IMG/VR virus record: IMGVR_UViG_3300049226_000061 | Coordinates: 1 to 26,019 of that record | Reading direction: 5' to 3' (one strand) | Length of the DNA stretch: 26,019 nt | DNA from: a virus | In this document: piece by piece, positions 1-9,679 of the stretch | Layout: each line of letters begins with the position of its first letter | How positions within the stretch are numbered: position 1 is the stretch's first letter | Notes under the pieces: generated by a model | Database searches by the model: none | What the model was told of the DNA's origin: nothing | The model's input: the letters and a program-made list of their open reading frames with translations, nothing else | Made by a program: the position numbers and the translations under genes

Positions 1-36
1 ATAAGTACTTTTTAAACAAAACTAATCTAAAATAAT

Positions 37-792
37 ATGACTACTAATTTTAAAAATAACGTTTGGGACGCGGTTGCAACAAGCGCGCCCAAAATGCCGA
101 AGAAACTACTTTCACCAGGTAGCACGAATGCAAAAACAGCAAAGAACGAAATTAAGACTTTTATACTTTATCTTATGCCGTACAATCAAAATAGCGAAGG
201 GCGCAATTTATGCCCGCACGCCTCCAAGGGTTGCGCTGCTGCTTGCTTAGTTAGTGCTGGTCGCGGTTCCTTTAGCAATGTAATAAAAGCAAGAGTAAAC
301 AAAACCGAATTGTTTATTAAAAATAAATTAGCCTTCTTAAATAAGCTAGCTGACGAAATTACACAAGAGACCGCAAAAGCTAAGCGGGGCGGGTATCGGG
401 TTGCTTTTAGACTCAATGGTACGTCCGATGCTGACTTTATCTATATGCTTAAAAAATACGGCTTTTTAGATATTGAGGACCTGCAGCCCCACGCGGTTTT
501 TTATGACTACACTAAAAACGTACAAAAGGCAATAAGATATAAAAGCCATCCAAATTACACGGTGACTTTTTCACGTGCTGAAAATAACGCGGTTAAAACT
601 AAGCTAGCAATAAAGCACGGTTTAAACGTTGCGGCGGTGTTCAATGAGTTGCCTAATACTTGGCGCGGTGTTGAGGTTGTTGACGGTGATAAGTCAGATC
701 TACAAATGTTAAAATATAACGGGGTTATATTAGGACTCAAAGCGAAAGGAGCCGCGCGCAAAGATACAACAGGCTTTACAATTTTAAATTGA
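37..792 (+). CDS. Gp88-family phage protein
   Basis: The 251-residue product resembles the family named after mycobacteriophage gene product 88, whose biochemical role is not established. The family-like core is seen at about residues 59-90: LCPHASKGCAAACL with Cys59, Cys66 and Cys70, then GRG and a basic ARVNKTELF stretch. A conserved-looking FRLNGTSD block follows near residue 125. The closely spaced cysteines could bind a metal, but that is inference. The start is the ATG after an AT-rich leader with no Shine-Dalgarno sequence, as is normal in Bacteroidetes. The stop is followed at once by the next small ORF. Family assignment is fairly secure; function is unknown. Confidence 0.75.
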   Translation: MTTNFKNNVWDAVATSAPKMPKKLLSPGSTNAKTAKNEIKTFILYLMPYNQNSEGRNLCPHASKGCAAACLVSAGRGSFSNVIKARVNKTELFIKNKLAFLNKLADEITQETAKAKRGGYRVAFRLNGTSDADFIYMLKKYGFLDIEDLQPHAVFYDYTKNVQKAIRYKSHPNYTVTFSRAENNAVKTKLAIKHGLNVAAVFNELPNTWRGVEVVDGDKSDLQMLKYNGVILGLKAKGAARKDTTGFTILN

Positions 793-797
793 ATAAT

Positions 798-983
798 ATG
801 TACTTAAGATTCTTAAACTACAAAGATACATTAATGAAGGTCACGGATGAATTATACGGTCCACGAAAATATTATATGCTGATGCCGGATGAAAAAATAA
901 ATTGTGTCTCCGAAACGCACGCAAGAATGAAAAAATATGTTTTAAAGCAAAAGAAAAACTTTAAACGCAATGGGCTCCATTAA
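798..983 (+). CDS. Small basic hypothetical protein
   Basis: This is a 61-residue ORF starting MYLRFLNYKD, just after the stop of the Gp88-like gene. An in-frame TTG at 789 would overlap the upstream stop, but the ATG at 798 is the more likely start. The protein is rich in Lys, Arg and Tyr, has no membrane segment and matches no family I recognise. Its last codons (FKRNGLH) lie inside the first copy of an 18-bp tandem repeat, so its C-terminus is shaped by that repeat. It could be a real small early protein or a chance ORF. Confidence 0.5.
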   Translation: MYLRFLNYKDTLMKVTDELYGPRKYYMLMPDEKINCVSETHARMKKYVLKQKKNFKRNGLH

Positions 984-997
984 ACGCAATGGGCTCC
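961..997 (+). repeat. Tandem 18-bp repeat (TTAAACGCAATGGGCTCC x2)
   Basis: Two identical 18-bp copies lie at 961-978 and 980-997, separated by one base. The first copy covers the end of the small ORF before it and the second is intergenic. The core TTAAACGCAATGGG matches a motif found elsewhere in the window (13783, 20647, 20668, 24825). The junction also holds a short AATGG-GCT-CCATT inverted repeat. Confidence 0.85.
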
Positions 998-1024
998 CCT
1001 CCAGCACGCCCTCCAGGTTCCCCC

Positions 1025-1042
1025 TGTAGGGCAAATCCTACA
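1025..1042. other. Hairpin TGTAGG-N6-CCTACA
   Basis: A perfect 6-bp stem with a 6-base loop sits between the tandem repeat and the phased TAACA repeats. No T-run follows, so a classical intrinsic terminator is unlikely. It may be part of the control region of the promoter downstream. Confidence 0.5.
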
Positions 1043-1049
1043 CGAGCTG

Positions 1050-1098
1050 TTAACAATTATTTAACATTAATTTAACATTAAGTTAACATTGGGTAACA
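1050..1098. promoter_or_regulatory. Five phased TAACA repeats (operator-like)
   Basis: TAACA occurs at 1051, 1062, 1073, 1084 and 1094, with spacings of 11, 11, 11 and 10 bases. Four of them read TTAACA and three continue as TTAACATT. The array runs into the -33 element of the promoter that follows. One-turn spacing suggests that several protein units bind along one face of the helix. The regulator is not identifiable. Confidence 0.6.
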
Positions 1099-1116
1099 TT
1101 GCCTGCCCTATATTTG
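1089..1116 (+). promoter_or_regulatory. Bacteroidetes-type promoter
   Basis: TTG at 1089-1091 and TATATTTG at 1109-1116 are separated by 17 bases. This fits the Bacteroidetes consensus TTG-N17-23-TAnnTTTG. The ATG of the next small gene lies 22 bases after the -7 element, so transcription should begin just upstream of it. The repeats overlapping the -33 element suggest repression or activation. Confidence 0.7.
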
Positions 1117-1138
1117 GGGTATAATTAAAAACAAAAAT

Positions 1139-1294
1139 ATGACACTAAAACAAGTTTACACTATATTGAACAAAACAATCGGACAGGTTGACCCTGATAC
1201 TTATTTGAAGCTATCCGAAGCTATCGCGAAGCATTCTACAACATCCTTCCAGGAGGGTGCCGATATGGTAAAACGAGTATACAATATAAAATAA
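1139..1294 (+). CDS. Small hypothetical protein, first gene after promoter
   Basis: The 51-residue ORF begins MTLKQVYTILNKTIGQVDP and ends MVKRVYNIK. It is directly downstream of a consensus promoter, and its ATG is preceded by the AT-rich leader AAAAACAAAAAT, which supports expression. It looks soluble and mostly helical. I do not recognise a family. It is probably an early phage protein transcribed together with the two small genes that follow. Confidence 0.6.
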   Translation: MTLKQVYTILNKTIGQVDPDTYLKLSEAIAKHSTTSFQEGADMVKRVYNIK

Positions 1295-1300
1295 AAAACG

Positions 1301-1402
1301 ATGAACACACAGAAAGCAATTAAAATAGTAGCAGTAATATTAACAGTAATTTCAGCAGTTGTCACCTTTGGCGGCGGTGTTGTTATCCTTTTAAATTTAT
1401 AA
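1301..1402 (+). CDS. 33-residue single-pass membrane peptide
   Basis: The ORF starts MNTQKAIK and continues with a hydrophobic stretch of about 23 residues (IVAVILTVISAVVTFGGGVV), enough for one membrane helix with a basic N-terminus. It starts 6 bases after the previous stop, and its stop overlaps the next start (TAATG). The arrangement favours a real mini-gene in the same transcript. Function is unknown; small phage membrane peptides may alter host envelope functions, but nothing here shows that. Confidence 0.5.
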   Translation: MNTQKAIKIVAVILTVISAVVTFGGGVVILLNL

Positions 1403-1599
1403 TGATGAGGTACAATAAACTAAACAAATTCGAGGCTGGCATCATTGAGGATGCCCTTAACCTTTGGGCTAATACCTTTATACAAGAAATTAAACAGATA
1501 GAAAGCTCCGGGCGCGTTGCACTCTTTCACGAGGATTACCCCAAGGGCATTAAAACTGATATTTTAGATAAGGTCAGAGACCTAACCAAAAAACGTTAA
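1402..1599 (+). CDS. Small hypothetical protein
   Basis: The 65-residue product starts MMRYNKLNKFEAGIIEDALNL and is predicted to be soluble and helical, with a charged, basic C-terminus. The start overlaps the stop of the membrane peptide by one base (TAATG), indicating translational coupling. A large hairpin follows about 12 bases after the stop. No family is recognised. Because the ATG is doubled (ATGATG), the exact first residue is uncertain by one codon. Confidence 0.6.
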   Translation: MMRYNKLNKFEAGIIEDALNLWANTFIQEIKQIESSGRVALFHEDYPKGIKTDILDKVRDLTKKR

Positions 1600-1611
1600 C
1601 ATATTAATTCT

Positions 1612-1645
1612 GAGGCGGTCCTACATTGTTTGTTTAGGTCGCCTC
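1612..1645 (+). terminator. Hairpin, possible terminator
   Basis: GAGGCG (1612-1617) pairs with CGCCTC, and an inner CCTA pairs with TAGG, leaving a loop of about 11 bases. A pyrimidine-rich tract TCCTTTCCTTT follows. It may end the short early transcript or attenuate the next small gene, which starts at 1662. The T-run is broken by C, so termination strength is doubtful. Confidence 0.45.
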
Positions 1646-1661
1646 TCCTTTCCTTTCAAAT

Positions 1662-1820
1662 ATGCACTATTTACACATTTTAGACTACAGCACAGGCACG
1701 AACACAGCATATATATACAATTCACCCCCTGAGGACCTGGAAACCGAGGTTATAACCTTAGGGCACAGCTTAAAAAATTGCGAGTGGATGCTTTCAACGA
1801 ATAAACCGGAAACCCTATAA
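1662..1820 (+). CDS. Small hypothetical protein
   Basis: The 52-residue ORF begins MHYLHILDYSTGTNTAYIYN and ends MLSTNKPETL. The pattern, with alternating aromatic residues followed by PPEDLETEVITLGHSLKNCEW, looks like a compact beta/alpha domain. Similar short proteins that bear on an acidic patch are common among flavophage early genes, but I cannot name this one. It follows a hairpin and precedes a long non-coding region, so it is the last gene of the early cluster on this side. Confidence 0.55.
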   Translation: MHYLHILDYSTGTNTAYIYNSPPEDLETEVITLGHSLKNCEWMLSTNKPETL

Positions 1821-2061
1821 GTGACCACAGGGCAAACAACGTAAAACGGAATGTGCCTTGTTTAAGTACCCAAGTTTAATCAAATCAACCGAAATAGAAA
1901 CTGCTCAGGTCTCCCTGCGATATTTGATGTTTAGGGATTAGGGTGGAATCACAATGACACCCGAATATATATATTACATATAATATTTGGCAAAAGAATA
2001 TACCTCACCCACAGCCTCACTTATATAGTACTTATATTATATATGTTTTTATAATAGAAAG

Positions 2062-2082
2062 ATATTATAAGGTTTATAATAT
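2062..2082. promoter_or_regulatory. Palindrome ATATTATAA-ggt-TTATAATAT
   Basis: A perfect 9-bp inverted repeat with a 3-base spacer, typical in size of a dimeric regulator site. It lies about 170 bases before the first tail gene. AT-rich composition raises the chance of coincidence. Confidence 0.45.
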
Positions 2083-2089
2083 GCTGGTA

Positions 2090-2126
2090 GTGGATGTGCG
2101 TGTCTGCCTCTTTGGGTGGCATCCAC
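2090..2126 (+). ncRNA. Structured leader hairpin GTGGATG...CATCCAC
   Basis: A 7-bp outer stem pairs GTGGATG (2090-2096) with CATCCAC (2120-2126) around a GC-richer loop in otherwise AT-rich DNA. The flanking GTGTC (2100-2104) and GACAC (2127-2131) offer an alternative pairing, so two mutually exclusive folds are possible. It could be a leader RNA or a processing site. There is no T-run directly after it. Confidence 0.35.
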
Positions 2127-2186
2127 GACACTCGACATATAAGTAACTCTTTTTATTTGACTTTGTTGTATATTCAGAGCAATTAT

Positions 2187-2206
2187 TTTGTTATAAATAT
2201 AACAAA
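2187..2206. promoter_or_regulatory. Palindrome TTTGTTATA-aa-TATAACAAA
   Basis: A perfect 9-bp inverted repeat with a 2-base spacer, located 44 bases upstream of the first tail gene start. Its position and symmetry suit an operator for a dimeric regulator. Confidence 0.5.
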
Positions 2207-2249
2207 CGAATATCGTGGTACATAAAACCCATATATAAGTTATATATAT

Positions 2250-2942
2250 ATGACTAAAGAATTTGAAATAAAAGTCCCCTCAGTAAAAGAGAATATTCAG
2301 CTACATAAGTATCAGAAGTATATTAAGCTGTTGCAAGACAACGAAGATATAGATGCAGACTTTCATCGATTGAAGGTGTTGCAGATATTCTGTGGTCTTG
2401 AGCTCAACGAGGCGAACAAGCTTCCTGTTGCGGAACTTGACTTCATAGTTGATCACATAGTAAAGATAATGTCTACTGAAGATAAACTTCAGCGCAGGTT
2501 TACTATGACTGACCCAAGCGGTAAAACGGTTGAGTTTGGTTTTATGCCTAACCTAAGCGAAATGACCTTAGGTGAGTATGTAGACCTAGAAAGTTATGTT
2601 TCTGATTGGGAGCAAATGCACAAGGCACTTGCAGTTATGTACAGACCTATTGTTGCTGGAAAGGGAGAGTTCTACGAGATAGAAGAATATGAAGGCTCTG
2701 CTAAATATGCAGACGTAATGAGGGATGCTCCAATGAATGTTGCTACGGGTGCTATGGTTTTTTTTTACAGTTTAGGGAAAGAACTACTGAAAACTACCCT
2801 TCGCTCTTTACAGGAGGATCTTCAGAAGGACCCACAACAGCAGAAGCTTCCTTCGGAAACAAATGGGGATGGTATCAATCAATATATGCACTCGCTGGAG
2901 GAGATGTTCTCAAGTTTGGAGACGTTACAAAAACAAATCTAG
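2250..2942 (+). CDS. Tail assembly chaperone-like protein (short form)
   Basis: The 230-residue product resembles a flavophage family found at the head of tail modules and shares the logic of the lambda gpG/gpGT chaperones. The N-terminus is helical (KYQKYIKLLQDNEDIDADFHRLKVLQIF is one block). The middle holds GFMPNLSEMTLGEYVDL and MHKALAVMYRPI. The end of the ordered part is MVFFYSLGKELLKTTL. A run of nine T codes the FF and is an in-phase -1 slippery site (T TTT TTT, 2759-2765). An overlapping reading frame continues to 3025, so a longer form is likely. The start follows the conserved late leader. Confidence is high that it is a gene and moderate for the role. Confidence 0.7.
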   Translation: MTKEFEIKVPSVKENIQLHKYQKYIKLLQDNEDIDADFHRLKVLQIFCGLELNEANKLPVAELDFIVDHIVKIMSTEDKLQRRFTMTDPSGKTVEFGFMPNLSEMTLGEYVDLESYVSDWEQMHKALAVMYRPIVAGKGEFYEIEEYEGSAKYADVMRDAPMNVATGAMVFFYSLGKELLKTTLRSLQEDLQKDPQQQKLPSETNGDGINQYMHSLEEMFSSLETLQKQI

Positions 2943-3025
2943 GGAAGTGCTTAATGTGGATGGAGTTTGAAAAGGAAAAGAACGATTTAGAAAGAATGCG
3001 AATAGAAAGAATGAGTAGACAATGA
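2765..3025 (+). CDS. -1 frame extension of the tail assembly chaperone
   Basis: This frame is open from 2705 to the TGA at 3025 but lacks a start upstream of 2954. It encodes a protein-like segment, KWGWYQSIYALAGGDVLKF then DVTKTNLGKCLMWMEFEKEK, ending MRIERMSRQ. A slip at the nine-T run (2757-2766) would give a fusion of about 258 residues. The stop overlaps the next start (ATGA at 3022), implying that this frame is really translated. An ATG at 2954 could start a separate 23-residue peptide, but that would leave the best part of the sequence untranslated. The exact slip site is inferred, not shown. Confidence 0.6.
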   Translation, partial: LQFRERTTENYPSLFTGGSSEGPTTAEASFGNKWGWYQSIYALAGGDVLKFGDVTKTNLGKCLMWMEFEKEKNDLERMRIERMSRQ

Positions 3026-3483
3026 GAGCAGTATACGAAGTATTAGATAAAATAAAGGACAAGCTAAGACAATCCCCTAACATACAAACAGTATCGTTTG
3101 GAGACCTGTTCAGTGTTGACCTGAATAAGACAGACATATATCCTATTGCACATATCAATATGGGGAATGTATCTTTCCAAGAGTACAAGCTTGAGGTAAC
3201 AATCAATCTGCTCCTTTTGGATATTGTAGACGATAACAGGGATTCGGATATGACGGATGACTTCTACGGAAATGACAACCTCCAAGATATCCTAAACACT
3301 CTGTTGGCGGAAGCCAACATTTTAGTAGCAGACCTGAGAAGGGGACAGGGTTATGAAGACTTGTTCCAGATAGAATCAGACCTAACTGCACAGCCGTTCT
3401 TAGATAGATTTGAGAATCAGCTTGCAGGATGGGGCATAGACATTGTGATATCATTCCCTAATAACGAAGTAACTATTTGCTAA
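3022..3483 (+). CDS. Head-tail connector / tail completion-like protein
   Basis: The 153-residue protein has the form of a small connector seen in Bacteroidetes phages: an N-terminal helix (MRAVYEVLDKIKDKLRQSP), a strand-rich core (TDIYPIAHINMGN), then YKLEVTINLLLLDIVDDN. The C-terminal part has FYGNDNLQDILNTLLAEAN, a run of residues conserved in my recollection of the family, and ends NEVTIC. Its start overlaps the -1 frame stop (ATGA). It is probably a tail terminator or neck protein that closes the tail tube and joins it to the head. The specific role is inferred from position and shape. Confidence 0.55.
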   Translation: MRAVYEVLDKIKDKLRQSPNIQTVSFGDLFSVDLNKTDIYPIAHINMGNVSFQEYKLEVTINLLLLDIVDDNRDSDMTDDFYGNDNLQDILNTLLAEANILVADLRRGQGYEDLFQIESDLTAQPFLDRFENQLAGWGIDIVISFPNNEVTIC

Positions 3484-7563: not shown

Positions 7564-7697
7564 TAAAGCACATTTTAGATTTATTAAAGTTAGATGATTA
7601 CTATGGCGTGTCTCCTTACATCGACATCGCCAAAGGTAAATATCAAGCACCCAAAACAGTAAAAGAGGCAATTAACAAACGAAAAAGATTTAACTAA
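7560..7697 (+). CDS. 45-residue hypothetical protein in tail operon
   Basis: The ORF begins MIKHILDLLKLDDYYGVSPY and ends with a basic helix NKRKRFN. It overlaps the upstream stop by four bases (ATGA) and its own stop overlaps the tape measure start (TAATG). Such perfect coupling on both sides is strong support that it is translated. It is soluble and basic at the end. It may help tail assembly because of its place right before the tape measure gene; this is inference. Confidence 0.65.
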   Translation: MIKHILDLLKLDDYYGVSPYIDIAKGKYQAPKTVKEAINKRKRFN

Positions 7698-9679
7698 TGG
7701 CAAACCAAATACAAGACATAAAGGTAGCGATAAAAGTCGATGGAGCAGGACAAGCCTATGTCCAAATAGATAAGCTAGGTGGTGGTTTTATGAAAGCTAC
7801 AACTGCAGCTAAAAAACTCCAAGAAGCCATAAAGCAACAGAATCCTGTACTTAAAGGGTCTGTTGCAGATTACCAAAGACAAATATCTGCACTAAAGCAA
7901 ATTAGAGATAACTCAGCCAAGACAGCTAACGATTACAATAGACAGACTATAGCAATATCGAAGTTGCAAACCAAAATGAGGGCTTTAACAGCCACAACTC
8001 AAGTTCAAAACAAGGTAAACGAAGCTCAGATATCAAATGCAGGTCTTGCAGGGGCTACCCTTACGGAATTTGGTCGTACCATATCGGATTTACCTTATGG
8101 TATTCGTGGTGTTGCAAACAACTTGTCTCAGTTGTCTACATTGTTCGTTACACTTATAGCTAAGTCTGACGGTGCAACAAACGCCTTTAAACAACTGCTT
8201 TCACAGCTTAGGGGTCCTTTAGGTTTCATATTGGCATTCCAAGCAATAATATCGCTAATAGATTTTTTCGCAGGTTCAGTCTCAAAAGCTACTGAAGAAA
8301 CGGACGCATTATCAAAAGCATTTAAAAGCGCATCTGAAGAAGCTTCAAAAGTTACAGTGGAGCTTGATATGCTATTGGGGGTTATCCAGGACTCTGGTTC
8401 ATCAACATTTGATTTCGATAGAGCTGTTAAGCAGTTGAGGAATAACTTTCCAAAATTAGTTTCACAATTAGACATAGCTGGAGTATCTACTGAAGATTTA
8501 AAAAATAAAACTGATGAAGCTAAGAGAATTACAGATGCATATACCGACTCCATAATAAGGCAAGCTAAAGCTAGAGCTATATTAAGTGAGATAGAGAAGA
8601 TTGAAGCTGAAAAATTAGAGAATGAACTGAAGCTACAGAGAGATCTTCAGGAGGAGGAAAAAACAAGAGAATTTGAAAGTAGAAAAGAAAGGATAGCAAC
8701 AACCAACTTAGCTTTCGGTACTATAATTAGGAGTGAAAAAGAAATCACAAGTAGTTTTGAGGAGCAAAGCGATAGGCGAATAAAGAAGATGAAGGAAGAG
8801 TTTGATGAAAAGCAAAAACTGCTAAATCAAGACTTAGAGTTCCTCACTTCAAGATTAGACACATCAGAAGTTCTTGAGTCATTGGACGAAAAAACTGTCA
8901 GTTCAATTAAGGAAAGGGGATACAGTGTTAAGACACTGTTCGATATGGAGCTAGAGGCAGACGATATATTGACAAGAAAGACGCTAGAAAATTCAGCTAA
9001 AAGAGGAAGGACAAGAGCAGAGGAGCTTGAGGAATTAAAGAGAATAGGTAAGGCGTTGCTATCTTCTATGTCAGAGGCGTTTGATGCTGAGTTTGAGGCT
9101 GATGTGTCTATAGAAGAGAGAAAAACTACTATAGCAAACAACGAGCTAAAAAAGAGGCTTAGAAATGAAAGTTTATCTGCTAGTGAAAAGGAGGGAATAA
9201 ATAATCAGATAGCAGCGAATGAGGAGGCTTTACAAGCTAAAAGAGATAAACTTGCTGAAAAGAACTTCAAGCAACAGAAAGCCCTATCTATAGTTCAAGC
9301 CTTAATGTCAACATATGAAATGGCTACTGATGCCTTTGCAACTATTAAAGGTATGAAAATACTAGGTCCTGCTGCACTTCCTTTAGCTATAGCAGCAGCA
9401 GCAACAGCAACAGCTTTCGGATTGAAGCAGGTTGCGGCTATAAAGAGGACTAAATTTGTACCATCAGCAATAGGCGGAAGTGGAGGTGGTGCAGGTGGTG
9501 CAGGAGGCGCAGATATACAAGCCCCTGACTTCAACGTAGTAGGTGCATCCGAAACATCGCAATTAGCAGAAACTGTAGCTGGTCAACAAGCGAAACCTGT
9601 AAAGGCTTTTGTTGTAGGAAAAGACATATCGACTCAGCAGGAGCTTGATAGAAATATAAGCAATACAGCATCCTTCTGA
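7697..9679 (+). CDS. Tape measure protein
   Basis: The 660-residue protein sets tail length and is threaded through the tail tube. Evidence: an N-terminal MANQIQDIKVAIKVDGAGQA followed by long coiled-coil helices (Lys, Gln, Ala rich), hydrophobic segments around residues 135-195 (GFILAFQAIISLIDFFAG), a second long charged coiled coil at about 285-540, and an Ala-rich hydrophobic stretch near 553-580 followed by a Gly-rich linker. This pattern is typical of tape measures. It is short for the class; by the usual 0.15 nm per residue it would imply a tail around 100 nm. Position in the tail operon supports the call. Confidence 0.8.
   Translation: MANQIQDIKVAIKVDGAGQAYVQIDKLGGGFMKATTAAKKLQEAIKQQNPVLKGSVADYQRQISALKQIRDNSAKTANDYNRQTIAISKLQTKMRALTATTQVQNKVNEAQISNAGLAGATLTEFGRTISDLPYGIRGVANNLSQLSTLFVTLIAKSDGATNAFKQLLSQLRGPLGFILAFQAIISLIDFFAGSVSKATEETDALSKAFKSASEEASKVTVELDMLLGVIQDSGSSTFDFDRAVKQLRNNFPKLVSQLDIAGVSTEDLKNKTDEAKRITDAYTDSIIRQAKARAILSEIEKIEAEKLENELKLQRDLQEEEKTREFESRKERIATTNLAFGTIIRSEKEITSSFEEQSDRRIKKMKEEFDEKQKLLNQDLEFLTSRLDTSEVLESLDEKTVSSIKERGYSVKTLFDMELEADDILTRKTLENSAKRGRTRAEELEELKRIGKALLSSMSEAFDAEFEADVSIEERKTTIANNELKKRLRNESLSASEKEGINNQIAANEEALQAKRDKLAEKNFKQQKALSIVQALMSTYEMATDAFATIKGMKILGPAALPLAIAAAATATAFGLKQVAAIKRTKFVPSAIGGSGGGAGGAGGADIQAPDFNVVGASETSQLAETVAGQQAKPVKAFVVGKDISTQQELDRNISNTASF

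Follow-up and report, generated by a model that had tools for sequence, protein, structure and literature searches.

A run of nine T's of conserved length at a frame switch in a putative tail chaperone gene of Bacteroidota phages: polymerase or ribosomal slippage?

Introduction

The frameshifting of phage tail chaperone genes is a textbook case of ribosomal recoding. The viral DNA analysed here (IMG/VR record IMGVR_UViG_3300049226_000061, positions 1 to 26,019, hereafter the window, 26,019 nucleotides in length) carries a gene of this apparent design, and a preliminary description of its sequence proposed that a programmed -1 frameshift on the ribosome joins two reading frames of a tail assembly chaperone gene. 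The locus raises three questions: whether the change of frame is real and kept in related phages, which machine slips, the RNA polymerase or the ribosome, and what the resulting proteins might do. The features on which the analysis rests are the following (all on the + strand; "unbiased" homologues are those collected without reference to the T run).

2250..2942, +, 0-frame ORF of 230 aa; residues 1-172 are common to both predicted products; matches phrog_32199 (E 1.5e-15), function unknown
2758..2766, +, run of nine T's where the frame changes; length 9 or 10 in 301/301 unbiased distinct homologues
2759..2765, +, T TTT TTT ribosomal slippery heptamer, in phase, inside the T9 run
2765..3025, +, -1 frame extension, 86 codons plus TGA; predicted helical domain, mean pLDDT 83
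2765..2942, +, stretch coded in both the 0 and -1 frames; codon-position differences point to constraint on each frame
3022..3483, +, the gene that follows, 153 aa, whose start and the -1 frame stop share the ATGA; matches phrog_30964, function unknown
7697..9679, +, tape measure-like protein of 660 aa, five genes downstream; kin of a phi10:1 virion structural protein

Results

The slip region of the ORF at 2250-2942 reads ATG GTT TTT TTT TAC AGT TTA GGG AAA, with GTT TTT TTT TAC at 2757-2768, and a shift at the T9 run would yield a trans-frame product of 258 aa (172 + 86). The TGA of the -1 frame, at 3023-3025, overlaps the ATG at 3022. The preliminary description had placed correctly the in-phase T TTT TTT, the -1 frame open from 2705 to 3025, the ATGA overlap with the next gene and a GGGAAAG motif at 2775-2781, which is out of phase and for this reason was discarded as a slip site. 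It did not remark on the length of the full run, which comprises nine T's, and the coding overlap of about 100 bases that it described, while real, was an underestimate, as the measured overlap is about 180 nt (2765-2942). The AlphaFold2 model of the 0-frame protein had a mean pLDDT of 87 and was low in the tail only. In the comparison of homologues the -1 domain, with an invariant FF...F and a near-invariant W-G-W-Y, was the more conserved of the two C-termini.

The 0-frame protein matched 67 viral contigs and the Nonlabens phages P12024L and P12024S. Wider searches were carried out with each domain separately and without using the slip site, and targeted searches for the run were added. About 380 related loci (308 distinct sequences) carrying the same two domains were found in viral contigs, in the two Nonlabens phages and in flavobacterial prophages, including those of Flagellimonas onchidii and Galbibacter pacificus; the domain searches gave the best 80 loci each, so that the family is larger than this sample. 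The preliminary description had suggested comparison with homologues as a way to see if the second frame and the slip site are conserved, and both were: in 306 of the 308 distinct sequences the second domain lay in the -1 frame with the T run at the same place, and none of the 308 lacked an in-phase T TTT TTT. L260 and L270 were the two that departed from the -1 arrangement; they had T8, with one base different in the run and the domains in a +1 relation, and look like single-base homopolymer deletions, either natural variants or assembly errors. On the basis of these comparisons, the programmed frame transition is almost certainly real and conserved. What stood of the earlier proposal is thus the switch of frame at the T run, found across about 380 loci, whereas its ribosomal mechanism is possible rather than established.

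The length of the dual-coded stretch varied among relatives. In two of them (L012:706-984 and L039:1173-1451) it extended over about 270 nt, the 0-frame tail reaching nearly the end of the -1 domain; these loci encode two C-termini of almost equal length on the same DNA. The Nonlabens phage pairs, genes 40/41 of P12024L and 38/39 of P12024S, share with the window gene the N and C domains, the place of the T9, the -1 relation and a TerL gene upstream (the latter as seen in relatives of the window gene). They differ from it in their sequence, with about 28% identity, in a 0-frame tail of just 28 residues and in being annotated as two hypothetical proteins each. Genes 40 and 41 of P12024L correspond to the two frames of the chaperone-like gene, with the T9 between them (JQ823123.1 23946-24640; L068:11998-12692).

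The annotation of gp40 and gp41 as two genes agrees with another reading of the locus, in which no fusion exists, the -1 frame forms an independent gene that begins at an internal start of its own and the overlap is a coincidence. We consider this very improbable, since the conserved -1 domain starts directly at the T run, ahead of every start codon that the homologues have in common, and the run itself is invariant and devoid of silent substitutions. Furthermore, several entries of the viral fold library, each a single protein of 240-267 aa (A0A516L5A8, A0A516L611 and A0A6J5N0W0), matched both domains, consistent with their being in-frame fused relatives.

Both tails of the gene carried signs of selection. 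Among 61 independent close pairs, the differences at 0-frame codon positions 1/2/3 were 0.044/0.025/0.192 in the upstream region and 0.041/0.086/0.071 in the overlap. The -1 frame limits change at the wobble position of the 0 frame, and position 2 of the 0 frame, the wobble of the -1 frame, varies less than under neutrality; therefore both C-terminal tails appear to be under selection. In 72 representatives less than 75% identical, the Phe codons of the slip site were TTT in 144/144 cases versus a background of 0.70, which has a probability of about 10^-22 if codons are assumed to be independent, and its Val codon was always GTT versus 0.37 elsewhere. A wobble change of T to C in these codons, which would alter neither product, was never seen. 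In these codon comparisons the invariance of silent positions shows selection on the nucleotides themselves, and it says nothing on which machine slips. The other coding sequence of the same contigs (1.2 Mb) contained 103 T7 runs, nine T8 runs and two runs of T9 or more.

To what extent the length of the run is preserved bears directly on the mechanism. All 301 unbiased distinct loci had 9 or 10 T's and never fewer; T10, a natural intermediate, occurred in several lineages. In addition, the loss of a T at one end of the run was matched by the gain of a T at the other end in 8/8 loci. Thus, where the 3' T was lost, in L060 (CGG), L233 (CTG), L404 (GTG) and L474 (GGG), codon 1 was TTT in each, and where the 5' T was lost, in L470 (GGT), L498 (GAT), L499 (AGT) and L532 (AAT), codon 4 was TTG or TTT. 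These loci represent about 6-7 lineages on a tree from which L404, too short, was left out. The coupling of the two ends gave a Fisher value of about 1e-8, which rises to about 1e-6 once the three T8 lineages described below are counted; as it treats the lineages as independent and uses an approximate background, it is to be read as an order of magnitude only.

A targeted scan of 2.9 million contigs led us to identify three genuine T8 lineages, all with the heptamer intact (GGT TTT TTT TAC in L237/L240, GTT TTT TTT CAG in L242 and GGT TTT TTT TCT in L246). As the same scan for T9 returned -1 homologues in 80/80 of the matches listed, T8 is rare. For these lineages, eight T's may be enough for slippage, or the frameshift may be the work of the ribosome. 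We had taken them at one stage as the case that would settle the matter in favour of the ribosome, a view that was overturned by the unbiased run-length count. Two loci with T7 were set aside: in L352 the -1 frame closes at once and in L368 the frames are inconsistent.

Slippage in vivo becomes efficient at runs of nine A or T (PMC5009743). Selection against such runs can be discerned in many bacteria from this length on, and a 9A or 9T run that keeps its length from homologue to homologue has been put forward as a sign of purposeful slippage (PMC1088944). The T9 run of the window gene fits this description of transcriptional slippage, with its length kept in 301/301 unbiased loci and its ends compensated. 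The in-phase heptamer expected of a ribosomal frameshift was likewise found in 308/308 sequences, although it is automatic for any T9.

A ribosomal slippery heptamer needs just seven T's. Given that seven would suffice for the ribosome and at least nine are preserved, transcriptional slippage is favoured, and we assign a probability of roughly 0.58 to its being the main mechanism, judging from the pattern of conservation. The RNA polymerase would add one U, or drop two, at the T9 run in a fraction of the transcripts, and ordinary translation of these slipped transcripts would continue into the -1 frame. Two proteins would result, one of 230 aa read in the 0 frame throughout and one of 258 aa whose C-terminus is the helical -1 domain. 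That the polymerase, rather than the ribosome, is the slipping machine is what we infer from run length; the ribosome may contribute by slipping -1 on the U UUU UUU of this run, on which both machines could act.

Weighing on the other side are the T8 lineages, the perfect heptamer for the ribosome that the T9 also contains, and the possibility that amino-acid requirements at codons 1 and 4 help to keep the ends of the run. The principal competing explanation is programmed -1 ribosomal frameshifting by tandem slippage of two Phe-tRNAs on U UUU UUU, as in lambda G/GT and the tail chaperones of many siphophages; the extra T's would then be retained on other grounds, for instance the amino acids at those two codons. 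This explanation draws on the heptamer being in phase in the 308 distinct sequences, on its retention in all three true T8 lineages and on its being the known mechanism of phage tail chaperones (PMC5009743). However, its first argument loses force because a T9 run always includes an in-phase heptamer, whatever the phase of the run, and for the same reason we dropped this invariance as proof of ribosomal slippage. The absence of any unbiased homologue with fewer than nine T's, the matching of end losses by gains at the opposite end and the absence of a conserved downstream structure also count against it. No 3' RNA structure was detected in the 72 representatives (mean folding z about -0.2, with dinucleotide shuffles and without pseudoknots), nor was an SD-like element upstream of the site, where the encoded amino acids account for the conserved bases; a search of Rfam matched no family. 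Stimulators of these two kinds are frequent in -1 ribosomal frameshifting, though not universal. We therefore consider ribosomal frameshifting as the main mechanism a serious candidate, albeit a less probable one than slippage of the polymerase.

Tail-module genes of this size with two frame-shifted isoforms are typically tail chaperones. The two-product architecture with a shared N-terminal domain, predicted from sequence in 306/308 cases, together with the gene neighbourhood, makes the same role quite probable for the window gene, whose pair of proteins would most likely act like lambda gpG/gpGT. In a Flagellimonas prophage the order of genes is terminase-like, chaperone-like, 149 aa, 169 aa, 342 aa, 780 aa, tape measure-like (647 aa) and protease-like, and the window has the same order from the chaperone-like gene onward. 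The tape measure-like protein of the window (7697..9679) has a relative among the virion structural proteins of Cellulophaga phage phi10:1 (E 1e-12) and showed a weak match to the PHROG tape measure family (E 0.12). In an 84% identical contig (L071), a terminase-like ORF and a GP88 gene lie upstream of the chaperone-like gene. No terminase gene was present upstream in the window (1-2249), where relatives carry TerL; the 26-kb record probably represents a fragment. Before the chaperone-like gene the window carries a GP88-family gene (37-792) and about 650 nt with no long ORFs.

The frame switch could also be real and serve a different morphogenesis protein, for instance one of packaging or of the head-tail joint, made with two C-terminal isoforms. 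This alternative concerns function only and is compatible with slippage of either machine. The gene lies directly after TerL in P12024L and in the Flagellimonas prophage, and it is not located between a major tail protein and the tape measure, as four other genes separate it from the tape measure-like gene. Sequence searches found no chaperone family in Pfam or PHROG, and PDB gave neither a sequence match nor a significant fold match. On the other hand, the typical identity of two-isoform, frame-shifted tail-module genes speaks against this alternative, as does the position of the gene, first in a conserved block that extends to the tape measure-like gene; a weak fold match was also obtained to A0A8S5V8Z8, annotated as a tail assembly chaperone (E 0.33, prob 0.77). 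We regard a non-chaperone function as unlikely. The name given in the preliminary description, tail assembly chaperone, is thus reasonable from architecture and neighbourhood, but it comes with no sequence match, a weak fold match and a position that is not beside the tape measure gene.

Discussion

Lambda G/GT uses ribosomal slippage (PMC5009743, citing Xu, Hendrix and Duda 2004). The window gene resembles lambda G/GT and its siphophage relatives in having a common N-terminus, a C-terminal domain in the -1 frame, a place in a block of structural genes and a slippery site in phase. In contrast to them, it has no detectable sequence homology to lambda G/GT, its site is a T9 run of conserved length, its 0-frame tail and -1 domain share about 180 nt, whereas in the lambda type the 0-frame tail ends soon after the site, and it follows TerL (in relatives) instead of adjoining the tape measure gene.

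Sites of transcriptional slippage were reported in Shigella flexneri mxiE, Thermus thermophilus dnaX and IS elements (PMC1088944, PMC5009743); in mxiE, two ORFs are joined by a nucleotide inserted at a run of U's (PMC1088944). With these the window gene shares a run of nine identical bases whose length is conserved, and with mxiE, where an inserted U makes the junction, also the overlap of the ORFs and the direction of the shift. Unlike the mxiE, dnaX and IS sites, the run in the window also holds a ribosomal heptamer, sits in a phage structural gene and is a predicted slippage site. Among the hits listed by searches of open-access papers, none described transcriptional slippage at a tail chaperone gene.

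There is about an even chance that a large and widespread family of Bacteroidota phages sets the ratio of its tail chaperone isoforms by polymerase slippage at a locked T9, and not by ribosomal frameshifting. If this is true, evolution would have conserved the requirement for two isoforms and not the way in which they are made, and predictors built on the ribosome would assign the wrong mechanism to hundreds of contigs. Annotated genomes such as that of P12024L carry the gene split in two, and our analysis gives a putative identity to an unannotated flavobacterial phage gene, phrog_32199. The natural variants (T8, T9, T10 and shifted runs) represent a ready test set for polymerase versus ribosome slippage.

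Homopolymer runs were also observed in other flavobacterial phages. Flavobacterium phage 11b has an A9 run at the frame change of a two-frame gene pair (L553:7647-7655) and Cellulophaga phage phi10:1 has an A8 run at the corresponding change in its own pair (L552:7496-7503); both pairs adjoin a tape measure-like gene, just upstream of it, and HMM comparison detected no homology of either to the window gene. These cases point to homopolymer frame switches as a common feature of tail chaperones in flavobacterial phages. In Flavobacterium phage 6H, AGN89393 (L551:9986-10927, - strand) is distantly related in fold (R9VW65, E 1e-4); it has T6 at the corresponding position, and more coding-like sequence past its stop in other frames.
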